Assembly (NCBI RefSeq): GCF_002742625.1
Contig: NZ_PEBF01000002.1
Span: forward strand, 124,001-188,000
Length of the DNA stretch: 64,000 nt
Source of the DNA: Caulobacter sp. FWC2
GTDB lineage: Bacteria > Pseudomonadota > Alphaproteobacteria > Caulobacterales > Caulobacteraceae
Direction: 5' to 3'
Part shown: positions 449-56,229 of the stretch, one piece after another
How positions within the stretch are numbered: position 1 is the stretch's first letter
Layout of the letters: each line of letters begins with the position of its first letter
Program-made: the position numbers and the translations under genes
Notes under the pieces: model-generated
Told to the model about the DNA's origin: nothing
Databases searched by the model: none
What the model saw: the letters and a program-made list of their open reading frames with translations, nothing else

Positions 449-542
449 GACTTCTGCTAGCCGCGGCCCAAGGAGCCAGGGGCGAGGAAGGGACCGGCGG
501 GGCGAGCCCGTCGGGTCTGGAGGGAGGAGCCCTCCGCGGCGG

Positions 543-3500
543 GTGAGCCAGGACCTTCCGATGACCGCGACCCTGCCGTTGTTCGCCCCTTCCCAGGCCG
601 ACACCGCCGCCAACCTCCTGTCCGCCGCCCGGGCCTTGGCCGCCCAGCTGAATCGATCGCGGGTGCTCGATCGCAAGCTCGTCTCCGGCGTCATGACCAC
701 CACCTTCGGCGCGTCCGACGTCGACGGCGCCTGGTCCTGGCGCGACGCCTACGACGCTATCGAGGCGGCATTGGTGCTGCAGATCCGCCGTCTGGCCCCG
801 CAGGTTGCGCGCCTGGAGGACGCCCCGGCCGAGATCTGCGCCCTGCTGGCCAGCCTTTCGGCCCTGACCCCGACACAGAGCCGGCGCTCGGAAGAGCAGG
901 TTGCCCTGGACCAGTTTTCCACGCCGCCGGAGCTTGGGGCCCTGGCTGTCCTGGCCGCCCAGGTGCGGCTGGGCGACAAGGTCTTGGAGCCGTCCGCCGG
1001 CACAGGGCTTCTTGCGGTTCTGGCCGAGGTCTGCGGGGCGCACCTGACGCTCAACGAGCTGTCGAGCGGCCGCGCGGGTTTGCTAGATGGCCTTTTCGCC
1101 CAGGTTCCGCGCACCCGCCACGACGCGGTCCATCTCAAGGATCTCCTCGAACCCTCCGGCTCCTTCGACGCCGTGGTGCTCAATCCGCCATTCCAGGCGC
1201 TGGGCTCCCACCTGGACGCGGCGATCGAGGTCCTGGCCGAGGGCGGGCGCCTTTCGGCGATCGTCCCGGCGCGACTTTTCGACGACCAGGCGGCGCTCAA
1301 GCGGCTGTCGCGCCAGGGCGCGATCGTCGCGCGCATCGCGTTCCCGGCCCGCGCCTATGCGGGCCAGGGAACTTCGGTGGAGACTGGGTTGCTGGTGGTC
1401 GATCGCGGCGTGGCCGTCGCCCCCTCCCCCGTCATCGCCGCCGAGACCCTCGCCGATGCGGCCAAGGCCGCCGCTGCGCTCGCGGCGCGCGCCAGCGCCA
1501 AGCCCCGGCGCTTCGTCAGCGTGGCGCAGGTCTCGGTGCTGGCGCCGCGCGCGCGCTCCCTGGCCGCACCGGCCGGACGTCTCTCCCTGATCAATGAAAC
1601 CGAACCGCTCGACTATCGGGTCGTCGACTGGACGGGCGAAGGCCAGGATGTCGGCCTCTACCAGGCCTATCGCCTGGGGCGGATCGCCATCGACCGGGCC
1701 GCTCCCCACCCTTCGGCCCTGGTGGAGTCGCGGCCCATGGCCTCGGTGGCGCCGCCGGCCCCGACCTACCGGCCGATCCTGCCCTCGCGTCTCCTGGCCG
1801 AACGCCGGCTGTCCGACGCCCAGCTGGAGACGGTGATCTACGCCGGCGAGGCCCATGCGGCGATGCTGCCGGGCGCCTGGAAGATCTCCGACGCGCCACA
1901 CATCGCCCTGTCGGTCGGCGCCGACACGCCCGAAGCGGTGCATTTCCGGCGCGGGTTCTTCCTGGGTGACGGCACCGGCTGCGGCAAGGGCCGTCAGATC
2001 GCCGGCGTCATCGCCGACAACATGGCCCAGGGCCGGGTCCAGGCGGTGTGGCTGTCAAAGAACGACGCCCTGTTGGAAGATGCGCGCCGCGACTGGTCGG
2101 CCATCGGCGGGGCGGCCAGCGACATCGTCGCGCAGGGGTCCTGGAAGCAGGCCGACGCCATTCGGCTGGACCGGGGCGTCCTCTATTCGACCTATGCGAC
2201 GCTGCGCCAACCGGCGCGCGGGGCGCGGGCCTCCCGGCTGGACCAGATCGTCGCCTGGCTCGGGGAGGACTTTGACGGGGTGATTGTTTTCGACGAGGCC
2301 CACGCCATGGCCAACGCCGTCGGCGGCGGCAAGGGCGCGCGCGGCCCCAAGAAGGCCTCCCAGCAGGGCATGGCGGGTCTTGCCCTGCAGAACCGCCTGC
2401 CCAAGGCCCGCGTCCTCTATGTCTCGGCGACGGGCGCGACGACGCCCGAGAACCTCGCCTACGCCTCGCGCCTGGGCCTGTGGGGCGGGGTCGAAGCGCC
2501 TTTCGTCAATCGCGAGACCTTCCTGGACGCCATCGAGTCCGGCGGGGTGGCGGTCATGGAGCTGATCGCCCGCGAGCTGAAGGCGCTGGGGCTTTATATC
2601 GCCCGTTCGCTGTCGTTCGACGGCGTGGAGTACGAGGCGCTCGGCCATCAGCTCACGGACCAGGACGTGGAGATCTGGAACAGCTGGGCCGACGCCTATC
2701 AGCTGATCCACCACAATCTTCGCGCGGCCCTGAAGGCCACCGGCGTTATCGACGATGATGGCAAGGTCAGGAGCGGCCAATCCGCCTCGGCGGTGATGTC
2801 GGCGTTCGAGGGGGCCAAGCTTCGGTTCTTCGGCCACCTCCTGGCCGGGCTGAAGACGCCTAGCCTGATCGCCGCGATCCGCGAGGACCTGGCCAACGGA
2901 CGCTCAGCGGTCGTCCAGGTCGTGTCCACCAACGCCGCGGTGATGGAGCGCAAGCTGGCCCAGATCCCGGTCGAGGAGTGGAACAACCTCTCCATCGACC
3001 TCACCCCCAAGGACCAGGTGCTCGACTACCTGATGTCGGCCTTTCCGGTTCAGGCCATGAGCGAGGTCGAGGACGAGAACGGCGAGGTCACACTGGTTCC
3101 CCTGATGGAGGACGGCGCGCCGGTTCTCAGCCAGGCGGCCCTGCGGCTGCGCGAGGAGAGCGTCGCCCACCTGGCCTGCCTGCCCGCCGTCCCGGGCGTG
3201 CTCGACGCGGTGCTCGAGGCCTTGGGGCCGGAGATGGTGGCGGAAATCACCGGGCGGGCCCGCCGTGTCGTCTCACGGGGCGGGCGCAAGGTCGTTGAGC
3301 GCCGCAGCGCCTCTGCGGCCAGCGTCGAGACTGACGCCTTCATGGCCGGCAAGAAGCGGGTCCTGGTGTTTTCCGACGCCGGAGGCACCGGACGCAGCTA
3401 TCACGCCGATCTGTCGGCGGCTAATCAGCAGCGCCGCGCCCACTATCTGGTCGAACCTGGCTGGCGGGCCGACGCGGCGATCCAGGGCCTGGGCCGCTCG

Positions 3501-4805
3501 CACCGCACCAACCAGGCCAGCGCTCCGATGTTCCGGCCGGTGACGACCGACATCCATGGCGAAAAGCGTTTCCTGTCGACCATCGCGCGGCGTCTGGACA
3601 GTCTGGGCGCCCTGACCCGCGGCGAGCGGCGCACCGCCGGCAATGGCCTCTTCCGCCCCGAGGACAATCTGGAAAGCCCGTGGGCGCACCGGGCGCTGTT
3701 GGCTTTCTACGTCGCGCTGTTCACCGGTCAGGTCGAGGCCATGGACCGGCAAGCCTTCGAGGCCAAGACCGGCCTTTCCCTGGCCGATCATGAAGGGAAC
3801 TTGCGCGCCTCCGACGACCTGCCGCCGATGAACACCTTCCTCAATCGGCTGCTGGCCCTGCGGATCGAGGACCAGAACGGTCTCTTCGCCGCCTTCGACG
3901 CCATCCTGGCCGGGATCCTGGAACGGGCCAGCGCCTCTGGCGCGCTGGATCGCGGCATGGAGGACATCGTCGCCGACGATCTGGAGGTGCTGGGCGAGGA
4001 GGTGTTGCGCACCGATGTGGCCACCCGCGCAGAAACCCGCCTGGTGCGGTTCGCGGTCCGCACGCGTCGCCAGATGTACTCGGCCGACGAGGCGCTTGCC
4101 GGCCAGGACGCCGCCGCCCTGATGATGGCGGTCAATTCCAAGTCGGGCCGCGGGGCCCTGGTGGTTCGGGGTCTGACCACCACGGACGACAACGACCGCC
4201 TGATCCAGGCCGTCCGCCTGATTCGACCCGAAAAACGCACCGTGGCCCCGCTCAAGGCGTTCGAGGAATCGGCGTGGGAGCCGGTCGACGAGCTGGCGTG
4301 GCGCGCGGCCTGGGCCGCCGAGGTCGCCGCCGCCGATCCCTGGATTTCGCGCGAGATGGCGCTGGTCACGGGCTTGCTTCTGCCGGTTTGGTCGAGTCTG
4401 CCGGGCAAGCAGGCGACGGTGCGACGCCTGAAGGCTCCTGATGGCCGGCGGTGGCTGGGGCGGGTGCTGGATCTGGGCCAGGTTCCGGCGCTGAAGGTGG
4501 CGCTGGGTCTGACCGACACCGCCCAGGCCGTGGGCGAAGGCGGCGTCGCCCGGCGCATGATCCTGGACGAGGGCGCATCGCTGTCCCTGACGACTGGCCT
4601 GTGGCTACGGCGGGCCAAGGTCATGGATCGCTGGCGGATCGAGGTGGTTGGCGCCGCCGCCCAACGGCAGGCCTTCGTCCAGCTCGGCTGCTTCGTCGAG
4701 ATCATCAATTACCAGCCCCGGGTGTTCGTCCCGGCCGATCAGGAGGCTGTGCTGTCGGCGGTCCTGGCGCGTTGGCCGGCCCAGACGATCCTGGCGGCGG
4801 CCTAG
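543..4805 (+). CDS. DNA methyltransferase / strawberry-notch-like superfamily 2 helicase fusion
   Basis: 1420-residue protein of the plasmid-encoded 'strawberry notch-like NTPase' type. An N-terminal class I SAM methyltransferase module shows motif I VLEPSAGTGL near residue 147 and the N6-adenine-type catalytic motif NPPF near residue 214. A helicase core follows, with a Walker A-like GDGTGCGKGRQ near residue 475, the DEAH-type box VIVFDEAHA near residue 582, and helicase C motifs around residues 940-1000 (GGTGRSYHADL; IQGLGRSHRTNQ). It probably remodels and methylates DNA; the physiological role of these plasmid versions is unknown. The start is a GTG at 543; an ATG at 561, preceded by AGGA, is an equally good start. 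RadC follows about 150 bp downstream. Confidence 0.85.
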   Translation: MSQDLPMTATLPLFAPSQADTAANLLSAARALAAQLNRSRVLDRKLVSGVMTTTFGASDVDGAWSWRDAYDAIEAALVLQIRRLAPQVARLEDAPAEICALLASLSALTPTQSRRSEEQVALDQFSTPPELGALAVLAAQVRLGDKVLEPSAGTGLLAVLAEVCGAHLTLNELSSGRAGLLDGLFAQVPRTRHDAVHLKDLLEPSGSFDAVVLNPPFQALGSHLDAAIEVLAEGGRLSAIVPARLFDDQAALKRLSRQGAIVARIAFPARAYAGQGTSVETGLLVVDRGVAVAPSPVIAAETLADAAKAAAALAARASAKPRRFVSVAQVSVLAPRARSLAAPAGRLSLINETEPLDYRVVDWTGEGQDVGLYQAYRLGRIAIDRAAPHPSALVESRPMASVAPPAPTYRPILPSRLLAERRLSDAQLETVIYAGEAHAAMLPGAWKISDAPHIALSVGADTPEAVHFRRGFFLGDGTGCGKGRQIAGVIADNMAQGRVQAVWLSKNDALLEDARRDWSAIGGAASDIVAQGSWKQADAIRLDRGVLYSTYATLRQPARGARASRLDQIVAWLGEDFDGVIVFDEAHAMANAVGGGKGARGPKKASQQGMAGLALQNRLPKARVLYVSATGATTPENLAYASRLGLWGGVEAPFVNRETFLDAIESGGVAVMELIARELKALGLYIARSLSFDGVEYEALGHQLTDQDVEIWNSWADAYQLIHHNLRAALKATGVIDDDGKVRSGQSASAVMSAFEGAKLRFFGHLLAGLKTPSLIAAIREDLANGRSAVVQVVSTNAAVMERKLAQIPVEEWNNLSIDLTPKDQVLDYLMSAFPVQAMSEVEDENGEVTLVPLMEDGAPVLSQAALRLREESVAHLACLPAVPGVLDAVLEALGPEMVAEITGRARRVVSRGGRKVVERRSASAASVETDAFMAGKKRVLVFSDAGGTGRSYHADLSAANQQRRAHYLVEPGWRADAAIQGLGRSHRTNQASAPMFRPVTTDIHGEKRFLSTIARRLDSLGALTRGERRTAGNGLFRPEDNLESPWAHRALLAFYVALFTGQVEAMDRQAFEAKTGLSLADHEGNLRASDDLPPMNTFLNRLLALRIEDQNGLFAAFDAILAGILERASASGALDRGMEDIVADDLEVLGEEVLRTDVATRAETRLVRFAVRTRRQMYSADEALAGQDAAALMMAVNSKSGRGALVVRGLTTTDDNDRLIQAVRLIRPEKRTVAPLKAFEESAWEPVDELAWRAAWAAEVAAADPWISREMALVTGLLLPVWSSLPGKQATVRRLKAPDGRRWLGRVLDLGQVPALKVALGLTDTAQAVGEGGVARRMILDEGASLSLTTGLWLRRAKVMDRWRIEVVGAAAQRQAFVQLGCFVEIINYQPRVFVPADQEAVLSAVLARWPAQTILAAA

Positions 4806-4957
4806 TCGGCGGCTTGACCGGCCTCCGGGCGGCCGCAGCGTCCGGAGGATCTGATCTAGCGCCGAGATCTCGGGCGTCGGGTCAAAAGGAAAAAGGCAGG
4901 GCGGTCGGTGGCGAGCGATCCGGAAATTCGTCCGGCGCCGACCAGCTGGAGGACGCC

Positions 4958-5737
4958 ATGTCCGCCTGCCCTCCCCCGCCCACTCCCGACACCACGACCG
5001 CCACCGATCACACCGCGCCCGCAGAGCCTGGGTCCGAGTGCTTCGGCGTCGGCGAAGTCTTCGCAGCACGCGATTTCATTCCGCCAACGTCTTCGGCCGA
5101 AGCCGTGCGCCAAGTCGCCGCGCGGATGGACAACGCGGTGCTGTCGGATGTGGAGATCCTGAATCTGCATCTGGCCGCGAGCGACTGCGACGACGCCCTG
5201 GGCAACGCCGAGCGCCTGCTCGAGCGGTTTGGCGGCCTTTCGGGCGTGCTGGCCGCGGACGTTGCGGAGCTCCTGCGCCACGTCGGCCCCCAGTCGGCGG
5301 TGAACCTAAAGCTCGTGCGTGAAATCGCCTGCCGTGTTAGCGCCGCGAGCTTGGCGGGGCGCCAGCTGCTCACCTCGTCCAGGACGGTCGCGGACTATTT
5401 CGCGACCCAGATGCGCGGCCTGCCGCGCGAGGAGTTCTGGACGCTGTTCCTTGACAAGCGCAACCAGCTCATCGTCGTGGAGCGACTGGGCCAAGGCACG
5501 ACGGACCACGCACCGGTCTATCCGCGCGAGGTGATACGTCGCGCGCTGGAGGTCGGCGCCAGCGCCCTGATCGTGGCGCACAATCATCCGTCCGGCGATC
5601 CTGACCCGTCGCGGGCCGACCTGCAGATGACCAAGGCCCTGGGCGACGCGGCCAAGGCCCTGGGCCTGGCGCTGTGGGACCACATGATCGTCGGCAGCGA
5701 CAAGGTGCTCAGCCTGAAGGCGGAGGGGCTCATGTGA
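4958..5737 (+). CDS. radC: RadC-family JAB/MPN+ protein
   Basis: 259 residues. The ATG at 4958 is chosen because GGAGG lies 8 nt upstream and the product then has family length. The N-terminal half has the helix-hairpin-helix-like segment LLERFGGLSGVLAADVAELL. The C-terminal half has the JAMM metal-binding signature AHNHPSGDPDPSRAD. RadC proteins are common on plasmids and ICEs next to replication and helicase genes, as here; their molecular activity is unresolved. Nothing in the sequence looks damaged. Confidence 0.9.
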   Translation: MSACPPPPTPDTTTATDHTAPAEPGSECFGVGEVFAARDFIPPTSSAEAVRQVAARMDNAVLSDVEILNLHLAASDCDDALGNAERLLERFGGLSGVLAADVAELLRHVGPQSAVNLKLVREIACRVSAASLAGRQLLTSSRTVADYFATQMRGLPREEFWTLFLDKRNQLIVVERLGQGTTDHAPVYPREVIRRALEVGASALIVAHNHPSGDPDPSRADLQMTKALGDAAKALGLALWDHMIVGSDKVLSLKAEGLM

Positions 5738-5778
5738 TCGGTCGCACCCCGTAGAATTCCACCCGTATTTTTCTGGAG

Positions 5779-6441
5779 ATGCGCGATCGACGGCCAATCA
5801 CCATCATCGTGCGGATGATCGAGAAAGCCGGAACCGGTGAGCGGGTCTACCTCGCCATCAAGTCCTTCCTTCTGACCGACAGCGACTACCGCCCGGGCGA
5901 GCGCGTCGACATCGGCGAACTCTCGCGCCGTTTCGGCGCGAGCGCCTCACCCGTACGCGCGGCCCTTCACCGAATGGCGGGGGAGCGGTTGCTGGTCAGC
6001 CATCAGGGCGAGGGCTTTTCATTCCCACGTTTGACCGAACCGGGCCTGTCGGATCTCTACCAGTGGAATGCCGCCTTGCTGGTCAACGCGCTTAGGACGG
6101 GACCGGCTCGAACGTTCACGCCAGCCCCGGACATCGACGCGGGCGCGAGGCCCATCGCCAGTCTGGAGACAGTTTTCGCGGTGCTGGCCGCGCAGAGCGA
6201 CAATGTCGAGGTCGAGTGGGCCGTCGCCGGCGTGAGTGATCGCCTGCGCCGCGTGCGTCGGGCGGAGCTGAGCCTCGTCGCCGACTTCGCGGATGAGGTG
6301 GCAGAGCTGCATAGGCTCCTGCTCGACGGCGAAGGCGGGGCGATCAGGACCATGATGGTCGCCTATCATCGTCGGCGTCTCCGACTGGTGCCGATCCTCG
6401 TCCGCCATCTTCACGGTCTCGCGGACCGCGAGCCGCGCTGA
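5779..6441 (+). CDS. GntR-family transcriptional regulator of the lasso peptide cluster
   Basis: 220 residues with an N-terminal winged HTH (RVYLAIKSFLLTDSDYRPGE, then IGELSRRFGASASPVRAALHRM) and a short helical C-terminal domain of FCD type. It sits directly upstream of, and parallel to, the two lasso precursors, so control of their promoter is the obvious role (inference). No good ribosome-binding site precedes the ATG at 5779; an ATG at 5815 is an alternative. Regulators of this family occur in some proteobacterial lasso clusters. Confidence 0.8.
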   Translation: MRDRRPITIIVRMIEKAGTGERVYLAIKSFLLTDSDYRPGERVDIGELSRRFGASASPVRAALHRMAGERLLVSHQGEGFSFPRLTEPGLSDLYQWNAALLVNALRTGPARTFTPAPDIDAGARPIASLETVFAVLAAQSDNVEVEWAVAGVSDRLRRVRRAELSLVADFADEVAELHRLLLDGEGGAIRTMMVAYHRRRLRLVPILVRHLHGLADREPR

Positions 6442-6450
6442 ATTCTGCGA

Positions 6451-6467
6451 GAATTTTCGCGAAATTC
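6451..6467. promoter_or_regulatory. Candidate operator upstream of lasso precursor genes
   Basis: GAATTT-TCGCG-AAATTC is a perfect 6-bp inverted repeat in an AT-rich patch just after the GntR stop and about 85 bp before the first precursor. A GAATTC half-site-like sequence also lies upstream of the GntR gene near 5755. Binding by the GntR protein is inferred, not shown. Confidence 0.45.
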
Positions 6468-6550
6468 CGGCGCTATTCCCTGCGTGTTCTCCACCTTCGG
6501 TCGCACCTTACAACCGTCACGGTGGGCGTGACCTAGAGAAGGAGACCGTC

Positions 6551-6685
6551 ATGGAACGGATCGAAGAGCACATCGAAGACGCCCTGATCGACCTGGGCGC
6601 CGTCACCGTCGAAACGCAGGGACGGACGCCGTTCCTGCCCGAGGTCGGGATCGGCGAAGCGCCGGCTGGTCTGTCCGCGGACTGA
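6551..6685 (+). CDS. Lasso peptide precursor A1
   Basis: 44 residues, with the start fixed by GAAGGAG about 8 nt upstream. The predicted leader MERIEEHIEDALIDLGAVTV ends in ETQ and has the family's conserved Thr at the penultimate leader position. The core begins with Gly: ring segment GRTPFLPE would close an isopeptide between Gly1 and Glu8, and tail VGIGEAPAGLSAD completes a 21-residue core. The leader is nearly identical to that of the second precursor 106 bp downstream, so the two arose by tandem duplication. Cleavage site and ring size are inferred from known proteobacterial lasso peptides. Confidence 0.88.
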   Translation: MERIEEHIEDALIDLGAVTVETQGRTPFLPEVGIGEAPAGLSAD

Positions 6686-6693
6686 CGCGAAGC

Positions 6694-6718
6694 GGGGACC
6701 CGCCTCCCGCGGGTCCCC
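6694..6718 (+). terminator. Strong hairpin after precursor A1
   Basis: GGGGACCCGC at 6694-6703 pairs perfectly with GCGGGTCCCC at 6709-6718 around a 5-nt loop, 8 nt after the A1 stop. No T-run follows. It probably acts as an attenuator or 3'-stabilising hairpin that keeps precursor mRNA more abundant than the processing genes. Confidence 0.5.
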
Positions 6719-6791
6719 AACGCCATTGTCGTGCGATCTGGGGCAAGCTCATGGCGCACGGCAGGATTCATCCAAACAGTAGGAGACCGTC

Positions 6792-6926
6792 ATGGAACGG
6801 ATCGAAGACCACGTCGAAGACGTCCTGGTCGACCTGGGCGCCGTCACCGTCGAAACCCAAGGCGTCGTGCCCGTTATGCCCGAAGTTGGGATCGGCGGGG
6901 CGCCGGATGGCCTCGGCGAGGACTGA
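6792..6926 (+). CDS. Lasso peptide precursor A2
   Basis: 44 residues, with AGGAG 8 nt upstream of the ATG. The leader MERIEDHVEDVLVDLGAVTV then ETQ differs from A1 by only a few conservative changes and keeps Thr at leader position -2. The predicted core has ring segment GVVPVMPE (Gly1-Glu8 closure) and tail VGIGGAPDGLGED, again 21 residues. Variation from A1 is concentrated at ring positions 2, 3, 5 and 6 and in the tail, while P4, P7, E8 and VGIG are kept. One B/C enzyme pair therefore probably matures both peptides. Confidence 0.88.
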   Translation: MERIEDHVEDVLVDLGAVTVETQGVVPVMPEVGIGGAPDGLGED

Positions 6927-6936
6927 CGAAACCCGG

Positions 6937-6957
6937 GGGACCCGCGACGCGGGTCCC
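6937..6957 (+). terminator. Strong hairpin between precursor A2 and the B gene
   Basis: GGGACCCGC at 6937-6945 pairs perfectly with GCGGGTCCC at 6949-6957 (3-nt loop). It repeats the hairpin that follows A1, so gene and hairpin were duplicated as a unit. It lies just before the ribosome-binding site of the B gene and could reduce transcription or translation of B and C. Confidence 0.5.
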
Positions 6958-6970
6958 AACGGAGGCCCTT

Positions 6971-7621
6971 ATGGTTCTGACCGTGCCGGCGCATCTTGGG
7001 TTTTGCGTAAGCCCCAGCGGCGCGATGTTTCTCGACATTCGGCGTGACCGCTACTTCGGGTTGCCGGGCGACCTCGAGACCGCGTTCTCGAGCTTGGTCG
7101 ACTGCGCCTTCGAAGAGGCTTCCGATCTGGCGGCCTTGGCGCGTCTCAAGGCGCTGGGCGTTGTCGAAGATGCCGCTGTGCCGCACCATGGCCGGCGGCC
7201 GCCGACAGCAAACACCAGCCTGCGCGATGTGGGCGCATGTTCCTCGATTTCCTGTTCGGCAACGGACGTCGCCGCTGTCGCCCGCGCTGTACTGCACGCC
7301 AGGGCTATGGTTCGTGGAACCCCGTTGCGCGAGATCATCTCCGGTCTTCCTGGGCCGAACGGGTCCAGCGATCGCGACGAGCTTTGCAAATTGGCGCGCC
7401 GATACCAGAGAGCTCGCCGCTGGACACCTATCAAACCAGTGTGCCTGCTCGACTCCCTGGCAATGCTGAACTATCTCGCGGGCCGCGGACATCGGCCGCT
7501 GTTGGTCTTTGGCGTCACACGCCAGCCCTTCAAGGCCCATTGCTGGCTCCAGCATGATCGGATGGTTCTCAACGACCATCTGGACCATGTGATCGGCCAC
7601 AGCGTCATCCTGGCCGTCTGA
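6971..7621 (+). CDS. Lasso peptide B protein (leader recognition and transglutaminase-like protease)
   Basis: 216 residues; the ATG at 6971 follows GGAGG. The N-terminal ~80 residues form a PqqD-like recognition domain (YFGLPGDLETAFSSL...), which binds the leader in this family. The C-terminal half is a transglutaminase-fold peptidase with visible catalytic candidates Cys (PVCLLDSLAM), His (FKAHCWLQ) and Asp (VLNDHLDH). It removes the leader so that the cyclase can close the ring. The stop codon overlaps the C gene start (TGATG), so the two are translationally coupled. Confidence 0.9.
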   Translation: MVLTVPAHLGFCVSPSGAMFLDIRRDRYFGLPGDLETAFSSLVDCAFEEASDLAALARLKALGVVEDAAVPHHGRRPPTANTSLRDVGACSSISCSATDVAAVARAVLHARAMVRGTPLREIISGLPGPNGSSDRDELCKLARRYQRARRWTPIKPVCLLDSLAMLNYLAGRGHRPLLVFGVTRQPFKAHCWLQHDRMVLNDHLDHVIGHSVILAV

Positions 7622-9369
7622 TGTCGGCCGATTACCTGATCGTGGTCGGCGATGACGCCGAGGTCGACGACCTAAACAACGCCGTGGCCCGATTGCCGAC
7701 TATGCGGGTCATCTATCGAGCAAGCCGGCTTCGGGTTTTGGCCGACGAGGCTCTCCCGCACACGGAGCTCCCATGCGGTGCGGTGCTTGGGACAATCTTT
7801 TCCACGGGCGAAGCCACACCGCTTTCCGAACTTCCTAAAGTCGCGGCCGCTGATGCGATGGTGTCAGGTGACGAAGGCCTCCTAAACCGCGTCTGGGGCG
7901 GCTATATTGCGATAACGAGCTCGCCCGAGCGCGGCGCCATCAATGTATTGCGGGACCCTTCCGGCGCCCTGCCCGCCTACATGGTGCGGCGAGATCGTGC
8001 GTGGTGGATTTTTTCGCGCATCGACGTCGCCTTAAGGGCTGGATTTGCTCGGCCCCAACTTGATTGGTCCGCGATCGGGCGAATGCTGGCCTATCCGCAG
8101 CTGCGCGGCGCGCAAACCGGCCTGCGCGGAATCTCCGAACTTCTTCCGGGAGTTCGGGCCGCATTCGAGGTTGGAGGCCATCGGCGCGAGACACTGGCCT
8201 GGTCGCCGTGGGTCTACGCGGCCCGCTCCGAAGAGTTCCTGAGCCCGGCAGCGGCAGCCGCAGCCGTCCGCGACGCGGTTGAGCGCAGCGTTCGCGGATG
8301 GAGCGCCGCCTCCGGGTCATGCGTTCTGGAGCTGTCCGGTGGCCTCGATTCCTCGATCATCGCCTGCAGCCTGGATCCTGGCGCGGAAACCAGCCTGATC
8401 AATTTCCACACTCCGACGATGGATGGCGATGAACGACGCTACGCCGAAGCCGTAGCGCTCGCCGCAGGGGGCAAGCTCACGACCGAACTGGTCACGCCCC
8501 AGGGGGTCGACATACGGCAAGCACGGCCTGGCCTACATCCACGCCCGGCGGCGCAAGCGCTGCTTCAACCCATCGATGCAGCGCTGGCGAAACTCGGCGC
8601 CGGTCAGCGCGTCGGGGCCTACTTCAGCGGGCTGGGCGGCGACAACGTCTTCTGCGCGCTGCCCACAGCGGCGCCGGCGGCCGACGCGCTTCGCGCTTTC
8701 GGACTCGGCCCGCGATTCTTCACCGCTCTCGACGACCTTTGTCGCCGTCACGAAGCAACAGCCTGGCGCGCTCTGAGCCTTACCGTCCGAAAGGCGTTTC
8801 GCCACATGCCGCTGCTCGGAATAGCGCCAGTGTTCAGTTACTTGACGCTGCAGGTGCCGGAGGATCCGCCAGCCCATCCATGGCTCAACCCGCCCGCCGA
8901 TATCCTGCCCGGAAAGCGTGAGCATGTGTCGGCCATCCTGGTCGCGATGGGTTTCCTCGATCGCTACGGGCATGCTGACCAAGCGCCGGTGCGTTTTCCT
9001 CTGCTGGCCCAACCCGTGCTCGAAGCTTGCCTTCGGGTCCCGACCTGGATGGCCAACGCCGGCGGGCGTAATCGCGCTGTAGCGCGTGACGCCTTCAAGG
9101 ACAGACTGCCGAGCGAGGTCTTCCACCGTCAGTCCAAGGGTGGCTTGACGGGATTTATGGGCCAGGCGTTCGAGGCCAACCGCGCCGCCCTTGCCGACCA
9201 GCTTGTTCGGGGCTGGCTCGTTACGGCCGAGCTGGTCGATCGCTCCGCGGTCGAGGCAAGCCTAGCCAAGCCCGCTCCTAACGCCCTGGAAATGGCTAGG
9301 CTTTTGTATCTCGCTGACGTGGAGGCTTGGGCCCGCACTTGGCCAATTAAGAGCGCGGCGTCGGCCTAG
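7621..9369 (+). CDS. Lasso peptide C protein (asparagine synthetase-like macrolactam synthetase)
   Basis: 582 residues. An N-terminal glutaminase-like fold without the catalytic Cys is followed by the ATP-pyrophosphatase loop LELSGGLDSSII near residue 238 and an asparagine-synthetase-type C-terminal domain (SKGGLTGFMGQAFEANR). In the family it adenylates the ring Glu/Asp side chain (Glu8 here) and joins it to the amino group of core residue 1 while threading the tail. It starts on the last base of the B gene. Its 3' end overlaps the convergent isopeptidase gene by 23 bp. Confidence 0.9.
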   Translation: MSADYLIVVGDDAEVDDLNNAVARLPTMRVIYRASRLRVLADEALPHTELPCGAVLGTIFSTGEATPLSELPKVAAADAMVSGDEGLLNRVWGGYIAITSSPERGAINVLRDPSGALPAYMVRRDRAWWIFSRIDVALRAGFARPQLDWSAIGRMLAYPQLRGAQTGLRGISELLPGVRAAFEVGGHRRETLAWSPWVYAARSEEFLSPAAAAAAVRDAVERSVRGWSAASGSCVLELSGGLDSSIIACSLDPGAETSLINFHTPTMDGDERRYAEAVALAAGGKLTTELVTPQGVDIRQARPGLHPRPAAQALLQPIDAALAKLGAGQRVGAYFSGLGGDNVFCALPTAAPAADALRAFGLGPRFFTALDDLCRRHEATAWRALSLTVRKAFRHMPLLGIAPVFSYLTLQVPEDPPAHPWLNPPADILPGKREHVSAILVAMGFLDRYGHADQAPVRFPLLAQPVLEACLRVPTWMANAGGRNRAVARDAFKDRLPSEVFHRQSKGGLTGFMGQAFEANRAALADQLVRGWLVTAELVDRSAVEASLAKPAPNALEMARLLYLADVEAWARTWPIKSAASA

Positions 9370-11326
9370 GCATGGCGCGCCAGCGGCGGTACTGATCGAC
9401 CTTGAGGGGATCCGGATCGACGTAGTCTTGGAGCCAGAAGCGGAACCAGTCGAGGTTGCGCTCGTAGGCGGCTAGGCGATGACGCGGCTGCGCCAGGACG
9501 TGGCGTTCCTGGGGAAAGACATGCAGTTCGACTGGGGTTTTGCTTGTCGAAAGACGTGCAAAGAACTCAATCGTTGGCCTGAACTCCTGTTCTGGAAGCT
9601 GCATCAACAGAGGGGTCTTGAATTCCTCGATGCTGAGGGCTGGTGACACCTGCTTCCATCGTTCGGGCGTTTCCTCCGGAGCCCCAAGTTTCCACGCCTC
9701 CCTGAGGCCGTCGTGCACATCGCGGCCGGCGACGCCGTTCAGCCAATAGTAGGCGGGCTCGATCAGGACGGAGGCGATCGACGCCGCCGCGAGGAGATTG
9801 GACTTTCGCGCCACCCAGACGGTCACTTCGGTGCCAAAGCTAAGACCGCCCATCCCGACCCGGCGCCGGTCAATACGGCCTTCACGATCGAGCAGGTCGA
9901 TGGCCGCGGAGACGCCGCTCAACGCCTCGTCATAGTTGGCCATGGCGTCCATGCTTCCGGGACGCCGCTGGATGCAGAGGGCGGCGATCCCGGCCTTGGC
10001 GAAGGCGACGAAAGGCCACTCGTCGCCGGTGCCGCCCCTTAGATAGCCGCTGCAGTTGTAGTAGTTGATGAACAGCGGAACCTGGGCTGCGCCCGCTGGC
10101 GCTATGAGCTCGCCCGTGAAAACACGGCCTTCTTTGTCCTTCCAAACGAGAGACTTGGCCACCAGGGCGGGATCGACGATCGATGTCCCATTGGGAGCGG
10201 CAAGGACATGGCGAGCGCCGCTGACCAGATCGATCTCTTCCAAGGTGGGCGGCGTCATGGCCGCAGCCTGGACGCATATGACCGCGCCAGGGCCGATCGC
10301 GCAGGGAACACCCGACTCGCCGCCGTCGAAGCGTCCGGGCGCGACGAGAATCGTTCGCGGCGGTCGGCCGATCCGCCACGACGCCAGGACGGTGCGATGC
10401 TGGTCGTCTTGCGCCCGAAAGACAACCTCGTCCTGTTCCGGGCGCCAGGCGACCCAGTCGAGCGACGGCAGGTCGCAAGGCGCGCCGGCGCAGGTCACGA
10501 CCGATCCGTCCGGCCGCACGACCTCCAAGCGCCAGCGCCCCGCAGCGTAGGTTAGACGCGCTTCGCCGAACCGCTCGGAGCGCGCGCTCGCCCATATCTT
10601 GACCTTGGCGAACACATCCAATGCCTTCGCGCGGGAGGGCCCGCCCTTATCGCTCTCATCGACGAGGGCGAGCGTGCCGAGATCCACCGTCTTGAAGCGT
10701 TCAGGCGTTGCGAAGGCCAGACTGTCGCGCTGGAACCATCGACCCGAGAACCGCTCTACGGCCGGTCGGCCATTGATCTCGACAGCGTCGAAGAGATTTT
10801 GCGACGGGTCGACCGTTCCGTCGATTCGGACGCCTTTCTCGTAGAGCGTCCGCTCCATCTCGATAATCTGCGAGCGTGTCGCGCGTACGGAATAGGTCAG
10901 GCGATTTTCGCCTTGGAGCGCGAAGCTGTCGACGTCGGCATCGTCCCGGCTGACGACCTGGTCTCCGGTTCCATCGCCGCGTGCGCGCCAGACCTGCACC
11001 TGGCCCGAACGCAGGGCCCGGTAATAGATGTTCCTGGAATCGAGGCTCCATTGCGGGGGCTCGATCACCGGAACGCCCTCGGACTTCCACAAGGCCGTCC
11101 CACCGTCACCGACCTTGATTGGGCCACCCGATCCATCGACCGGAAGAGTCCACCATGACAGTTCGTACCGGTTGCTGTTCAGCGAAGCTCGCCCTTGCCG
11201 GAACGCCACCGTCGTACCGTCGGGTGAGATGACTGGTGTGGTGAGGTCAACGGTCTCGATGAGCGCCGGCATTGATGGAGCGGGCGCAATAGCGGCGAGC
11301 GCGGCCAGCATGGGCATCGTCACCAT
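9347..11326 (-). CDS. Lasso peptide isopeptidase (S9 prolyl-oligopeptidase fold)
   Basis: 659 residues with a short hydrophobic N-terminal signal (MPMLAALAAIAPAPSMPA), a beta-propeller-like middle (PDGTTVAF, SRNIYYRALRSG) and a C-terminal alpha/beta hydrolase. The nucleophile elbow is GMGGLSFGTE and the catalytic His candidate is in QERHVLAQPRHR. AtxE-type isopeptidases linearise the cluster's own lasso peptide, probably in the periplasm. The ATG at 11326 overlaps the TonB receptor stop by 7 nt, so translation is likely coupled to that gene; an ATG at 11317 is a possible alternative start. Confidence 0.88.
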   Translation of the reverse strand: MVTMPMLAALAAIAPAPSMPALIETVDLTTPVISPDGTTVAFRQGRASLNSNRYELSWWTLPVDGSGGPIKVGDGGTALWKSEGVPVIEPPQWSLDSRNIYYRALRSGQVQVWRARGDGTGDQVVSRDDADVDSFALQGENRLTYSVRATRSQIIEMERTLYEKGVRIDGTVDPSQNLFDAVEINGRPAVERFSGRWFQRDSLAFATPERFKTVDLGTLALVDESDKGGPSRAKALDVFAKVKIWASARSERFGEARLTYAAGRWRLEVVRPDGSVVTCAGAPCDLPSLDWVAWRPEQDEVVFRAQDDQHRTVLASWRIGRPPRTILVAPGRFDGGESGVPCAIGPGAVICVQAAAMTPPTLEEIDLVSGARHVLAAPNGTSIVDPALVAKSLVWKDKEGRVFTGELIAPAGAAQVPLFINYYNCSGYLRGGTGDEWPFVAFAKAGIAALCIQRRPGSMDAMANYDEALSGVSAAIDLLDREGRIDRRRVGMGGLSFGTEVTVWVARKSNLLAAASIASVLIEPAYYWLNGVAGRDVHDGLREAWKLGAPEETPERWKQVSPALSIEEFKTPLLMQLPEQEFRPTIEFFARLSTSKTPVELHVFPQERHVLAQPRHRLAAYERNLDWFRFWLQDYVDPDPLKVDQYRRWRAMPRPTPRS

Positions 11327-14273
11327 GCCTTGGTCACCTCGATCGCCAAGCGGCGACCCGTGGGATCGGCCTTCTCGCCGTCGTAGCCGATGGCCGAAAG
11401 GACCGTGCGCTGCTCCACGAACGGTGGAGCGCGGTCGAAGAGATTATTTGCCGAGAGAGCCACCCGCACCCCCCCGAACCGTGGCGAGGTGGCCGGGACT
11501 TGATAGGCCAATTGGGCGTCCACCGTCGTCCAGGCTTTCACGCGTTGGCGGGGGCTGACCGTCTGGTTTTGATAGTCGGCGGTATAGTTGACGAAAGCGC
11601 TCGCCGACCATGGCCCGTTCGCCCAGAGCGCCCGACCTCTTGCGCGGAAATCCACGGGGTTGCCGATCGTCCCCACGACATCAATCACCGGCGAACCCGA
11701 TGTGACCTTCTGGTCCACCGAAAAGATCTTGCTCGCGGTGAGGCCGAAGACCAGGTCGCCGGCAGAGAGGGCGAGACGGTACCCTACATCGACATCTAGG
11801 CCCTTCTGGTGGACCGACGAAAGATTGCGGTTCTGCAGATCGACCAGCGCGGTGATGGCCGAGGCGGGGATATTGCTCGGATTGAGCAACTGGGGGCTAG
11901 CGTAGTAGCCGGCCACCACGGAAGACGGGGGGTTTTCCGTGATGACGTCTCGATAGACGTCACGTTCGATCAGGAGATTGAACGCATTGGCGTTCACATT
12001 GGCGATCCGGTCTTTGTATTCGATGTCATAGAAGGTCGTCGACACGTTCAAACCGGGCGCGATGGCTGGTGTATAGGTGAACCCCGCCGTCCAGGTGGTG
12101 GCCCGCTCGGGACCCATGTCCGGTGCGTTGCCAAGCAAGGCGAGGACCGTTGAACTTCCCGACGGCGAGCGCGGATCGGGCAGCACCACCGGCTGATACG
12201 CGGTGACGGTCGGGCCGCTCCGCAGGTCTTGGAAGCTCGGGGCGCGAAAGGACTTTCCGAAGCTCGCCCGGACAACGATGTCTGATACCGGCCGCCAATC
12301 GAGTCCCAGCTTCGGGTTCGACGTCGTGCCGACATCACTATACCGTTCGATCCGTCCAGCCAGGGATAGCTCAAGACGACGGACGCCGGGCACGCGCATG
12401 GCTTCGTCGACCAGTGGAAGCCGCGCCTCCGCGTAGGCGGCAGCGATCTCGCGCGTCCCTGGATAAACGGTCGGCGTGAACGTGGGCTGGGTTCCGCTCA
12501 GGAACGACGCGGATGTTTGGCTGTAGCGCTCGGACCGCCACTCGACACCAACGGCAAGCTTGGCGAGGCCGGCAGGCAGAGCAATCAGCGGACCATCGGC
12601 ACGCAGGGCCGCCGAGGCGGCCTTGAACGCGCCATCGGCGCCGAACCAGCCGGCTACACGAGCCCTCGTCGCTGCGGGCGTTGATCCAGCCACCCCAAAT
12701 ACATTGTACGCCGTAGCCGGATTGCTGTCGGCCAGCGCCGCGGCCAACGCCGTGCTGTTGGGGCCGTAGTTGTCGATACGGTAGTGCTCTTCCTGGCGTG
12801 CGACGCCACCTTGTAAGGTCGCTGACCACTCGCCGAGCTCTCGGTCAGACCGAAGAGGGTGTTGTAAGCGCGTACTTTGCCGTTGCTGCGCGGAGCGCCG
12901 AAATCCCCCCGAAAATCGTACTGCACCGAAACGGGGCCTGTTCCGGCTAGTGGGTTCAAATAGAACGGGTTGCTGTTCGGCACCGAAACGGTCCGTTGGC
13001 TGCCGCCCAGGACACGTTGATCGAACTCGCGTTGAGCAAGCAGCGCCTGCCCGAATAGACGCGTCCGATCTCCAAGCGACTGCTCGGCCGAAAGATAGAC
13101 GCTGTGACGGTGCTGGCGCGGAAGGACATCGGTGTCCGCATAGTCATCCGCCTTGTTCTGAAATCCGGCGGTCAACTGTTTGAGTGTCAGTCCTGTGCCG
13201 TTCTGGCCTTGCGGCAGCGCATAGGACTGACCAGACATGACGATCGTGCCTGGAGCGGCGAACGCCCGGCGATAGTCGGCGCCGCCGAACGGGCGCAGGT
13301 CTTCGCGAACGAAGTCACGATCGGCAGCGTCTAGGGCGTCGCGGTCATAGTACTCGTAGGCAGCGACGACCCGGCCGGTAGCCCAGCGCTTACCGACCAA
13401 GAAGCCGGTCTGGACCTCTCGTGCGTCCCCGTCGGCCGTGCTGTAGCGCAGCCGTGTCTCAGCGCCCTCGAAGCGATCGCGCATGATGAAATTCACCACG
13501 CCGGCGACCGCGTCGGACCCATAAGTCGCGGAAGCGCCGTCAGCCAGTACCTCGACGCGCTGGATCACCGAGGCGGGGATGACCGAAATGTCGGCGAAAA
13601 CGCCGGCAATGCCGCCGCCCGCAGGTCGTGCGCCGTTTATCAGTACAAGTGTTGAGTTCGACCCGAGACCCCTGAGGTTGACGCCCGATCCCATGGCGGT
13701 GTTGAACGGAGCTCCGTTTCGGCTGCTTGTCCCCGAGGTGGTCTCGCCCGGGCCCCCAGCGAAATTCTGCGGCAGGGCCAGCATGATTTGTTGGGCAGTG
13801 GCTTGACCGGCCCGATCGATGTCGTCGCGATTTATCGCAATCAGGTTCGACCCGACAGGCGCGGCGCCGCGGATCAATGTGCCGGTGACCACGAGTTCCG
13901 ACAGAACCTCAGGGTCGCCGGCTTGAGGCTCCCCCTGCGCTGTGCTCAGCGCGCGGCGCAGGACCAGCTTGTCGCCGACGGGGATCAGGACCAGCCCGCT
14001 GTTGGCCAGCAGGCGCTCGAACGCCTGGTCGGGCGTGAAGCGGCCCTTCAAGGCGGGCGCGCCTTTTCCCGCCACCAGGTCGGAGGGAACAATGACCTCC
14101 CGGCCGCTGGCCTGGGCCACGGCCGTCAGGGCCTTGCCGAGGTCCTGCCGCTCGAGGTCGTAGGCCAGAGCGGCCGCGGGCTTTTGCGCCTGGGCTGCGG
14201 CCTGACCCGCCAGGGTCAGGCTGAGGACCGCGGCGCTGGCGAGCAGGCCCCGGCGGGTCGTGATCGAGAACAT
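11320..14273 (-). pseudogene. TonB-dependent receptor with STN domain, interrupted by a one-base frameshift
   Basis: Start at 14273 gives a signal peptide (MFSITTRRGLLASAAVLSLT then LAGQAAAQA). An STN domain (about residues 35-105) marks a transducer that signals to FecR. Plug (GSGVNLRGLGSNSTLVLING) and barrel follow. The frame breaks near 12842-12850: upstream reads ...NTLFGLTE, while barrel sequence continues one frame over as ELGEWSATLQGGVARQEEHY... to the terminal ...VTKAW. One missing base restores a single protein of about 985 residues. The product would import the lasso peptide or sense it. Either recent decay or a sequencing error. Confidence 0.8.
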
Positions 14274-14378
14274 GGTTTCCCCCAAAAGGACGCGAGGTGC
14301 GTCGTGTCTGGGGGGGAGGGACGAGGCGAGCGGGCGGCGCCTCCCAAAAAAGTCCACGCCAGTGTCACGGCGTCGTCG

Positions 14379-15332
14379 TCAGGCGGCCGCGCGGCTCAGG
14401 ATCAGGTCGCCGTTCGGGGCCTTGAGGACGGTGAGGCCAAAGGCCGCCGCCAGGCCGTTGGCCAGCTCGTCCGCGCCGGTGACCCGGAAAGCCCCCGAGA
14501 CCCGCAGCGCGCCGACGGCTGGGTCGGCCAAGCGGATCTTTCGGCTGTTGTAGCGGTTGGCGATCGCGGCCACCGCCGACAGCGGCGTCTGGTCGAAGGT
14601 GCGCAGGCCCGAGGGCCACTGGGCCTCGACCTTGGAGGCGGGCCGGATGTTCACCGACGAGAGCTTGGGCCCGAACAGCACCTCGCGTCCCGTCGGCAGG
14701 GCCGCGCTGTCCGGCAGCAAGCGGGCCGCGGCGCCGGAAAGCCGGGGCTGGCCTGACAGCACGGTGACGGCGAGGCCGCCCTGCGGTGCTAAGGCCAGGT
14801 CGAGGGTGGCGCCATGGCCGTCGAGCTGGGCGCCGTCGGCCTCGATCCGCAAGGCTCCGGCCGCGACGATCCGCGCCCGCCCGTGGTCGAGCCGTACGAC
14901 CTGGCGGCCCGCGCGCGTCACGGCGGTGGCGGCGCTGTCGGTGTCCAGCACCATGGAGGAGCCGTCGGCCAGCTTGACCGCGCGGATCTGGCCCAGCCCC
15001 GTGGCGTAGCGCATCTCGGCCTGGCCGCCGCGCCATGCGACCAGCGACAGAACCGCCGCGGCGATGACGCAGGCCGCCAGGGCGCCGGTGATCTTGTAGA
15101 CCGGAGCGAGATCGCGCGTCCGGCGCGTGCGCCGCCACACGTCTGGACGGCGCGATTGGGCCAGGACGCCGGCCTCGTCGAACTGGCGCTCGATCGCCTC
15201 ATAGGCCCGGCGATTGGCCGCGTCGGCGCGCCAGGCGTCGAAGGCGGCGCGATGGGTCAGGGCCCCCGGTCCGCGCATGCGCGCGAACCATTGGGCGGCC
15301 TCCTGGTCCCTCGCCTTGTCCTGCTGGCTCAT
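14379..15332 (-). CDS. FecR-family anti-sigma factor
   Basis: 317 residues. The cytoplasmic N-terminus has the DUF4880-type segment AAQWFARMRGPGALTHRAAF. One membrane helix follows near residues 80-100 (ITGALAACVIAAAVLSLVAW), then a periplasmic FecR domain (LADGSSMVLDTDSA) and a C-terminal STN-like contact domain (VSGAFRVTGADELANGLAAA). It would receive a ligand signal from the TonB receptor and release the adjacent ECF sigma factor. It lies 16 nt after the sigma gene and upstream of the receptor in one minus-strand operon. Confidence 0.88.
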   Translation of the reverse strand: MSQQDKARDQEAAQWFARMRGPGALTHRAAFDAWRADAANRRAYEAIERQFDEAGVLAQSRRPDVWRRTRRTRDLAPVYKITGALAACVIAAAVLSLVAWRGGQAEMRYATGLGQIRAVKLADGSSMVLDTDSAATAVTRAGRQVVRLDHGRARIVAAGALRIEADGAQLDGHGATLDLALAPQGGLAVTVLSGQPRLSGAAARLLPDSAALPTGREVLFGPKLSSVNIRPASKVEAQWPSGLRTFDQTPLSAVAAIANRYNSRKIRLADPAVGALRVSGAFRVTGADELANGLAAAFGLTVLKAPNGDLILSRAAA

Positions 15333-15348
15333 ACGCCCCCTTCCCTGA

Positions 15349-15906
15349 TCAGCGCCTGGACAAGGCGCGCTTGAGGTGCGCCGCCGCCTTGGCCATCTGC
15401 TTTTCGATCCCGCTCACGCTCATGCCCAGCGCCTCGGCGATCTGGCCGTAGCTCTCGCCGTCCAGTCGATGGCGCAGGAAGACCTCCCGCGTCTTGGGCT
15501 TCATCGTGCTGACCGCCGCTTCGTAGCGCGCCAGGGTTTGGCGCGCCACCAGGAGTTGATGCGGATCGCCCTCCTCGGTCGCGTGGCGGTCGGGCTGCAG
15601 CTCGGCGTGACTCCGCTCGATCCGACGGGCGAAGCTTTTCGAGCGGTCGCGCAGCAGGTTCCAGATGATGCCCTTCATGTAGGACTCGGGATTGGTGAGG
15701 GTCTGGCGGTCGGCCGCGCCGGTCAGACGCAGGAAGACCTCCTGGACGATGTCGCCGGCTTCTTCGCGGCTGTAGCGCCGGGTCAGGAGCCGCAAGAGCC
15801 GGGGCGCCTGGCTGCGGAACAGGCGCTCGACGTCGCCGCCGCGCACCGGCGGGGAGACGGCCGTGTCGGTCGGAGCCGGACGCGGCTCGGCTAGTAGGTC
15901 GCTCAT
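15349..15906 (-). CDS. FecI-type ECF RNA polymerase sigma factor
   Basis: 185 residues. Region 2 is LTRRYSREEAGDIVQEVFLRL with NPESYMKGIIWNLLRDR; region 4 is REVFLRHRLDGESYGQIAEA then LGMSVSGIEKQMAKA. It is the first gene of the sigma/FecR/receptor/isopeptidase operon and probably drives its own operon when the receptor senses ligand. FecI/FecR/TonB trios are typical of isopeptidase-containing proteobacterial lasso clusters. No clear ECF promoter could be assigned by eye. Confidence 0.9.
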   Translation of the reverse strand: MSDLLAEPRPAPTDTAVSPPVRGGDVERLFRSQAPRLLRLLTRRYSREEAGDIVQEVFLRLTGAADRQTLTNPESYMKGIIWNLLRDRSKSFARRIERSHAELQPDRHATEEGDPHQLLVARQTLARYEAAVSTMKPKTREVFLRHRLDGESYGQIAEALGMSVSGIEKQMAKAAAHLKRALSRR

Positions 15907-16230
15907 CGCCGCCCCTCCCCTCGCCGCCCGGCGGCGGGCGTCGTCACCGACCCGCCCTCAAGATCGTGGCCACCGGCCATGGTTCGCCTCCGTGGTGAGG
16001 CGCCGCCCGACGAGGGTCGGGTCGTCCTTGAGACCATGGCTTGAGTGGCAAGGCGCGCGTCGTCGTCGACGCCAGCGGCGCAGGCACACCGGTCGCGCCG
16101 GGTGACGTCCGGTCGCGAAGCGGCTCTATCAAGCGAGGTTCTCACGCCTCGGCGTCACGCTTTCAGCGACGCGGCTTGAGTCTAAGACGGCCGAATCGGG
16201 GTTGCAAGCCGAGCGGCGCGCCGGCGGCGC
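15907..16230. other. Intergenic region with no supported gene
   Basis: About 320 bp upstream of the sigma factor and downstream of the YjbR-like gene. Only GC-rich sequence and short frames without protein-like features are seen. The sigma factor promoter should lie at its left end. Confidence 0.5.
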
Positions 16231-52970: not shown

Positions 52971-53025
52971 GGCTTGTGCGATACGGCGTCGTAGGGGATC
53001 GACAAGTCCTGCCCAGCGATGAGGC

Positions 53026-54060: not shown

Positions 54061-54150
54061 CCTGGCTCTGCTCCTCTGACCGGCCGCGAACCGGCCTTGT
54101 TTCTGGGCCGGCACCATCCCCGTCGTCACTAACCGCAGCAACCTGTTCCA

Positions 54151-54167
54151 TTTGACCGCGGGTCAAA
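54151..54167. promoter_or_regulatory. TetR operator candidate, copy 1 (divergent promoter)
   Basis: TTTGACC-GCG-GGTCAAA, perfect 7-bp arms, lies between the divergent 53026-54060 gene and the TetR gene. Related sites occur at 58385 and 59824. Confidence 0.65.
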
Positions 54168-54193
54168 CCGCGTGCATCTCTGCGCACCAAACA

Positions 54194-54874: not shown

Positions 54875-54882
54875 TAGGCCCG

Positions 54883-56199: not shown

Positions 56200-56229
56200 T
56201 AGCGTTCTCCACCGATCACAGATTGCACG

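Follow-up and report, generated by a model that had tools for sequence, protein, structure and literature searches.

A plasmid-borne isopeptidase-type lasso locus

The window analysed here, the whole stretch of 64,000 nucleotides, is part of a 265,331-base contig that stands beside a contig of 5.25 Mb. It carries a replication initiator protein, a MobA/MobL relaxase, a TraG-type coupling protein and a T2SSE-family ATPase, on the strength of which the source contig is most likely a conjugative plasmid. Elsewhere in the window, ORF translations from 49813–61689 inspected by eye are transporter-, dehydrogenase- and regulator-like and look catabolic. The locus of interest runs in the order GntR, A1, A2, B and C, followed by a convergent isopeptidase, a TonB-dependent receptor, FecR and an ECF sigma factor. 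Its features are listed below with the adjoining backbone genes; retained marks the side that stays with the plasmid backbone in the comparisons that follow.

543–4805, +, Strawberry-notch-type helicase, plasmid backbone (Pfam AAA_34 390.2 bits, Helicase_C_4 309.2 bits)
4997–5737, +, RadC, plasmid backbone, start codon provisional (Pfam RadC 142.8 bits)
5779–6441, +, GntR-family regulator, retained (Pfam GntR 38.4 bits)
6451–6604, +, 5' island: promoter/5'UTR, Shine-Dalgarno and first 18 codons of the A1 leader (bin identities)
6551–6619, +, A1 leader, Thr at −2 (ORF, family models)
6620–6685, +, A1 core and stop, left edge of the putatively exchanged block (ORF, junction profiles)
6694–6718, +, G+C-rich hairpin after A1 with perfect 10-bp arms (fold of 6682–6730, −26 kcal/mol, z −3.2)
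6792–6860, +, A2 leader (ORF, family models)
6861–6926, +, A2 core and stop (ORF)
6937–6957, +, G+C-rich hairpin after A2 and before B with perfect 10-bp arms (fold of 6924–6970, −24.3 kcal/mol, z −2.5)
6971–7621, +, lasso B protein, leader peptidase (NF033537 62.6 bits, cut-off 33)
7621–9369, +, lasso C protein, asparagine-synthetase-like cyclase (Pfam Asn_synthase 102.3 bits, cut-off 21)
9347–11326, −, AtxE2-family lasso isopeptidase (NF033523 553.6 bits, cut-off 400)
11320–14273, −, TonB-dependent receptor, frameshifted, with STN at ~13950–14096 and plug at ~13497–13838 (ORFs, Pfam domains)
14379–15332, −, FecR-like anti-sigma regulator, retained (Pfam FecR 33.4 bits, DUF4880 29.2 bits)
15349–15906, −, ECF sigma factor, FecI-like, retained (sigma70-ECF 64.7 bits, cut-off 42.9)
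6620–13860, no strand, putatively exchanged cassette: A1 core, A2, B, C, isopeptidase, receptor barrel and plug (pairwise profiles)

The helicase occupies the same place in plasmid p1 of FWC26, where it is labelled methyltransferase/helicase, and RadC also lies upstream of GntR in loci L032 and L052.

A1 (6551–6685, +) and A2 (6792–6926, +) are ORFs of 44 amino acids, A1 with leader MERIEEHIEDALIDLGAVTVETQ and core GRTPFLPEVGIGEAPAGLSAD, A2 with leader MERIEDHVEDVLVDLGAVTVETQ and core GVVPVMPEVGIGGAPDGLGED. In both, a 23-residue leader with Thr at −2 precedes a 21-residue core that begins with Gly1; Glu8 is the sole acidic residue at core positions 7–9 and is followed by a tail of 13 residues, all as the sequence-only reading had described. 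Its identification of the pair as lasso precursors with a predicted Gly1–Glu8 ring is likewise backed by family models, locus content and homologues. A1 and A2 score 53.8 and 43.6 bits against the benenodin model NF033522 (cut-off 33), and 51.8 and 38.5 bits against the Subterisin model PF24178 (cut-off 27). A 161-nucleotide direct repeat, 81% identical and spaced by 241 nucleotides, contains both genes. Judged by the family-model scores and this repeat, chance ORFs are ruled out. DNA identity between A1 and A2 is 63/69 in the leader and 43/63 in the core. Positive selection on the cores is not supported, dN (0.30) being below dS (0.82) between the two. The A1 core matched nothing among solved structures. 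The benenodin family was found in 36 of 390 sampled genomes of the bacterial family, the source included (27 above the cut-off), and in two of 385 genomes sampled from the class, the source genome and one below the cut-off.

The enzymes of the locus carry the expected catalytic residues. C158 and H190 of B are invariant in an alignment of 10 B proteins, as is SGG.DSS of C in an alignment of 7 C proteins; against the NF033535 cyclase model C scores 49.7 bits, far under the cut-off of 525. The isopeptidase aligns with the sequence of the AtxE2 structure (E 2.4e-47). Its S496, E581 and H609, invariant in 8 aligned proteins and within the region aligned to AtxE2 chain 5txc, we take to be the Ser-Glu-His triad from the triad residues of AtxE2. 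The B/C/isopeptidase architecture named at the outset is confirmed by the family models as a standard isopeptidase-type locus. The same layout is found on plasmids of FWC26 (NZ_CP033873.1) and C. rhizosphaerae (NZ_CP048816.1). Of 14 further plasmid loci 12 have annotation, and these largely keep it; among them, the precursors of L098, L100 and L106 have no GntR upstream, L104 lacks FecR and sigma, and individual genes are without annotation in L094, L096 and L097. The part of the review PMC9266682 that was consulted gives this same locus architecture.

B was tried as an anchor for unbiased precursor sampling and rejected because NF033537 is too broad (176 of 390 genomes matched). Nineteen of 30 B-anchored loci held no recognisable precursor, and a related-locus pattern scan of genome contigs with B gave 95 pattern matches, none of them confirmed. 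The source chromosome has three further lasso-type loci, L085, L086 and L088, with 3, 2 and 2 precursors. The two cores of L088, GAQVGEPEGINPLARETQG and GEFVGLMKEDFLPGYYMPD, are similar to caulosegnins I and II, and S9 peptidases under the isopeptidase cut-off lie about 2 kb away. The leader pattern found no precursor in L084, a fourth B-like chromosomal locus.

Ring and tail sequences of the cores

Related cores were drawn from 79 searched proteins and from leader-pattern precursors of the fetched loci (minus L004 and L005), together 117 distinct precursors with 112 distinct cores. The protein searches had returned 9 proteins with A1 as query, 4 with A2 and 79 when 8 aligned precursors served as query. 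Of the 112 cores, 98 have D or E at position 8. The P7-E8 ring end and the G10-[IV]11-G12 loop start, both present in A1 and A2, occur in 30 cores each; at least two prolines at positions 2–7 with an acid at 8 are encoded in 34. Since 16 of the 112 encoded cores carry P4-P7-E8, this ring marks a recurrent subgroup rather than something singular, and we saw no described member of it.

The claim that the core sequences are new holds for the literature searched, in which exact words matched neither ring (most subscription journals lie outside this search), but close unnamed homologues turned up in the protein search. The exact A1 precursor is cluster P0001, which has 2 member sequences and occurs on 5 contigs; the 265,331-base source contig is the longest of these. 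The P0002 core, GNTPFLPEVGIGEAPAGLSED, is identical to that of A1 at 19 of 21 positions and follows a different leader, and the P0004 core differs from that of A2 by one residue. P0002 and P0005, homologues of A1 and A2, are each listed with one contig of 1,076 bases, which they may share.

Capistruin, whose ring we take to have 9 residues, shares with A1 and A2 the presence of two ring prolines, placed at other positions. The same is true of astexin-3 and caulosegnin II, whose rings are of 9 residues with the prolines elsewhere. That no two-proline ring had been described was thus too strong a claim, the three rings being GTPGFQTPD, GPTPMVGLD and GTLTPGLPE, respectively (PMC12427821, Table 1). 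Inspected by eye, that table showed no two-proline ring of 8 residues.

The nearest entries in the same table are caulonodins I (GDVLNAPEPGIGREPTGLSRD), II (GDVLFAPEPGVGRPPMGLSED) and III (GQIYDHPEVGIGAYGCEGLQR), which resemble A1 and A2 in their 21-residue cores, P7-E8 and G10-[IV]11-G12. Caulonodins I and II end in GLSxD and caulonodin III has the exact PEVGIG of A1 and A2, whereas ring positions 2–6 differ and Pro at ring position 4 is absent from all three (PMC12427821, as far as covered). By sequence, A1 and A2 are accordingly placed as new members of the known benenodin/subterisin family, nearest to caulonodins I–III. Benenodin-1 itself differs in its ring closure on Asp8 and its loop. 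The astexin-2/-3 cluster of Asticcacaulis excentricus, which includes AtxE2, has the isopeptidase family and locus layout seen here, and astexin-2 ends in GLSAD as A1 does; their rings, however, are of 9 residues and closed on Asp9, with other loops. The VGIG that follows the ring (6644–6655 and 6885–6896) recurs, shifted by two positions, in the loop of microcin J25, GGAGHVPEYFVGIGTPISFYG (PMC12427821, Table 1), probably by convergence.

Conservation of Gly1 and Glu8 had been noted from the letters and stands, but that account omitted G-[LI]-x-x-D at the C terminus, which apart from these two residues is conserved more than any other part of the core across the family. Gly17 is present in 79 of 79 cores of 21 residues, as invariant as Gly1; [LIV] occupies position 18 in 77 of them, and 68 have Asp as residue 21. 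G[LIV]xx[DE] is the end of 92 of the 112 cores, where composition predicts about 0.8. Because the family models cover the tail, the motif was re-sampled through isopeptidase-anchored loci (26 plasmid records matched; the two from Caulobacter and 14 of the other 24 were fetched). A precursor is present in all 14 non-Caulobacter plasmid loci. In 12 of them precursors were read by the leader pattern, four pattern hits elsewhere in the loci being excluded, one of which ends in the motif; those of L093 and L105 and the second L099 gene were recognised by eye among small ORFs. G[LIVM]xx[DE] ends 15 of the 15 distinct precursors of this sample, compared with none of the 7 other-type lasso precursors on the source chromosome (L085, L086 and L088). 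The parts covered of PMC12427821 and PMC11006600, the only two lasso papers with tail words that a paper search listed, hold no discussion of such a motif.

The encoded tail may not be the tail of the product. The L036 core is the benenodin-1 sequence plus GLDRD, and benenodin-1 was isolated without its last five residues (figure legend in PMC13352647, seen in part). Similarly, the gene for sphingonodin II (L094) encodes ...NLIGGISDD, four residues beyond the ...NLIGG listed in PMC12427821. The 21-residue product of A1 and A2 is hence uncertain, one outcome among several. A general trimming rule is disfavoured by the listed forms of caulonodins I and II and of astexin-2, in which the tail motif is intact (PMC12427821, in the part covered). 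A passage of PMC13352647 blames endogenous carboxypeptidases during expression for shortened products. No residue in the A2 tail is larger than Leu, Ile, Asp or Glu, so that this peptide would test how small a plug holds an 8-residue ring.

Two edges and what lies between them

Two independent pairs of Caulobacter plasmids have backbones about 95–97% identical outside a block within which proteins are 35–65% identical. In the first pair, the window and G008, positions 484–6621 are 96.5% identical in nucleotides, the match ending two bases into the A1 core; the next ~7 kb are dissimilar, after which the two agree again at 97% for as far as the sequence was fetched. In profiles of 50- and 200-base bins the edges fall at the start of the core and near +7200. 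Refined at base level, the left edge is resolved to about 6605–6625, comprising the last five leader codons and the first two core codons. The right edge lies at about 13840–13880 (+7220 to +7260 in 20-base bins), between the STN domain and the plug of the receptor. The motif LSELVVTGT, which we take to be the TonB box, adjoins it. A right junction at 13198, suggested by the first BLAST comparison, was replaced by ~13860 from the finer profiles, BLAST having extended into sequence of 55–70% identity. In the second pair, G020 and G010, identity on the left is 94.9% and reaches as far as core base 6; on the right, from +7200 to about +9900, most 200-base bins are 92–100% identical. The two edges are the same as in the first pair, with a different backbone and different cores.

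The leader, GntR, the STN domain, FecR and sigma are retained with the backbone. Between the window and G008, GntR, sigma, FecR and STN are 97, 99, 98 and 99% identical, whereas plug, barrel, isopeptidase, C and B are 63, 54, 48, 39 and 46% identical. The corresponding values for G020 and G010 are 97, 97, 98 and 100% for the retained side and 65, 54, 53, 35 and 40% for the block. The reverse case is provided by G319 and G021, with 64, 56, 45 and 55% on the retained side and 90, 85, 71, 74 and 84% in the block, and whose most similar cores are identical at the scored positions (score 100). G010 and G062 are a comparable case, with a core score of 96, 70% identity in the barrel, 72% in the isopeptidase and 47% in FecR. 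GntR reaches 97% in only two of 66 pairs (12 loci), window–G008 and G020–G010. High identity on the left runs to −12, +3, +5, +21, +62 and +67 of the core in six pairs of greater divergence; the left edge is thus not always exactly at the leader/core junction. G+C content in the window is 64.5% for the block and 69.3 and 69.2% for the flanks; of 12 loci, only 8 have a block lower in G+C than either flank. A chimeric assembly is an unlikely cause of the block pattern because the same joints recur in four genomes. The titles and abstract starts searched, a set with the primary caulonodin and astexin papers outside its scope, contained no report of cassette exchange in lasso loci.

Core similarity co-varies with part of the block. 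It was scored on positions 2–7 and 9–16 for the best pair of tandem cores and compared with protein identity in Mantel tests over 12 loci, with p values per test, uncorrected for the number of tests. The receptor was split at the TonB box, replacing an earlier split at residue 365; the window barrel was read from two frames and the G010 barrel aligned only partly. Core correlates with barrel (r 0.66, p 0.0005), isopeptidase (r 0.51, p 0.0005) and C (r 0.44, p 0.0035), and more weakly with plug (r 0.33, p 0.008). Over the same 12 loci none of the correlations with the retained side is significant (FecR −0.08, sigma −0.12, GntR −0.01, STN 0.09). The two parts of the receptor behave separately: STN correlates with FecR (r 0.82, p 0.001) and not significantly with barrel (r 0.10, 12 loci). 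Core and B show no correlation (r 0.01, 12 loci), a value to be read in light of B being poorly measured, several of its identities resting on short aligned stretches. With the receptor split at residue 365, the direction was unchanged without G008 and G010, and without G021, G062 and G054. The genes and their families, the edges in the two plasmid pairs and the co-variation of core with barrel, isopeptidase and cyclase are established by these comparisons. Co-inheritance in a contiguous block is also expected from linkage, so that receptor and peptide are seen to travel together, with binding not implied.

Immediately left of the block lies a strongly conserved 5' island, present in 10 of 120 genomes, the source included, all of the same genus. 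Across 11 aligned loci identity is 83–100% over 6541–6600 in 10 and 37–67% at 6631–6660 in all 11. Leader codons for the same residue are identical to those of A1 in 134 of 149 cases (8 of 10 genus loci, with a first leader of 23 amino acids; G007 and G021 were left out for leader length). The neighbouring B proteins of the same loci are 28–39% identical, with 221 of 582 same-residue codons identical. The difference has a Fisher p of 1.6e-32, which is descriptive since codons are not independent. The upstream GntR gene is intermediate, about half of its same-residue codons being identical, with the exception of G008 (200 of 207).

The island contains inverted repeats at 6451–6467 and 6516–6532, and the repeat GTCACG-N5-CGTGAC is exact in the loci of 8 genomes. 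Of 12 loci from other genera, 4 have perfect 6-bp inverted repeats of different sequence that start 38–41 bases upstream of the precursor; taking the window (6516–6532) with L097, L099, L100 and L103, inverted repeats differing in sequence are found 34–41 bases before the precursor. Those upstream of the precursor are possible GntR operators. The rest of the window has 7 loose matches to GTCACG-N5-CGTGAC against 4.39 expected, which is chance level. A conserved RNA fold hiding the Shine-Dalgarno finds little support: in the consensus fold only 2 of 21 pairs have changes on both sides, and single folds vary between genomes; the repeat itself can equally be a DNA operator. An Rfam scan of 5000–16500 gave nothing at E 0.1. 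Downstream folds like those after A1 and A2 are common, with z ≤ −2.0 against base shuffles in 43 of the 53 precursors examined.

A probable private ligand and its receptor

We consider it likely that A1 and A2 are lasso precursors whose peptide is the private ligand of the neighbouring receptor, and that the parts that determine specificity are exchanged as one block. Ring closure, threading, receptor binding, signalling and biological use we infer as follows. B would cut the leader after Thr(−2)-Gln(−1), and C would close Gly1 onto Glu8 to give an 8-residue ring with the tail passing through it. Once released, the peptide would most likely be the private ligand of the TonB-dependent receptor from the same block; its uptake would be signalled by the STN domain to FecR and the ECF sigma factor, and the lasso, once imported, would be opened by the isopeptidase. 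Isopeptidases act on cognate threaded lassos only, and for the role of isopeptidase-type lasso peptides there are proposals only, according to the part of PMC9266682 consulted. The ligand, the enzymes that mature and open it, and the half of the receptor that binds it would all have to match, and would hence be inherited and exchanged as one cassette. The parts fitting the peptide (C, isopeptidase, plug and barrel) would move with it, whereas the signal carriers (STN, FecR and sigma) and the parts for transcription and leader recognition (island and leader) would stay. B moves with the block yet is uncorrelated with the core, which would fit B reading the leader.

The arrangement resembles Fec-type (FecA-FecR-FecI) uptake and signalling in having an STN-bearing TonB receptor, FecR and an ECF sigma factor. 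It would differ in that the ligand is the peptide of a neighbouring gene and that the ligand genes are exchanged together with the receptor half that binds the ligand. We lean slightly towards extending this to isopeptidase-type loci at large, as private ligand–receptor systems in which, on Caulobacter plasmids, the specificity half swaps between two fixed joints while the signalling half stays, the island and the TonB-box region serving as homologous joints and the G-[LI]-x-x-D tail being read by a common partner. Swapped cassettes would name partners, predicting which receptor barrel takes up which lasso. They also offer ready-made natural controls, with the same backbone carrying a different cassette and the same cassette on a different backbone, and the leader/core junction and TonB box would be natural joints for chimeras.

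A simpler account, possible but doubtful, is that of an ordinary new caulonodin-like lasso pair whose block pattern reflects mere horizontal transfer of the whole cluster. The locus genes do fit known families, and caulonodins I–III share the core layout described above. Transfer of the whole cluster would, however, bring leader, GntR, FecR and sigma with it, and all of these stay with the backbone in both pairs; moreover, both edges are intragenic, at module boundaries, and in the same places in two independent pairs.

Rather unlikely, in our view, is that the locus is decaying, with a real receptor frameshift and a system no longer working in the source strain. The frameshift lies near 12843–12846 (−) and leaves two halves in different frames, each aligned along its length to FWC26. 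Relatives have open copies, each receptor half being one single-frame match in 11 of them, although this check is coarse and the G010 barrel aligned only partly to the query. The loop may be dead in the source strain, or the assembly wrong at 12.8 kb. The ORFs of the precursors, B, C, isopeptidase, FecR and sigma are all open, and an isolated frameshift is also a frequent product of misassembly.

That A1 and A2 are antimicrobial lasso peptides of the microcin J25 kind seems improbable. The lasso class includes antimicrobials and the locus is on a plasmid, but an isopeptidase is present and no ABC transporter D gene was found among the ten locus proteins scanned (NCBIfam, Pfam). Known isopeptidase-type lassos, with the exception of astexin-1, show no antimicrobial activity, and one described locus, that of rubrinodin, has both isopeptidase and ABC transporter (PMC9266682, in the part consulted).

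Unusually fast evolution in place under diversifying selection, rather than exchange, would suit hypervariable cores beside a nearly fixed 5' island, but we regard it as very improbable: the change is too abrupt, with flanks at 95–97% beside proteins at 35–54% (B, C, isopeptidase and barrel), near-identical cores and similar blocks sit on different backbones (G319–G021 and G010–G062), A1 and A2 give no sign of positive selection, and the identities already point to the block genes of the window and G008 having different relatives.
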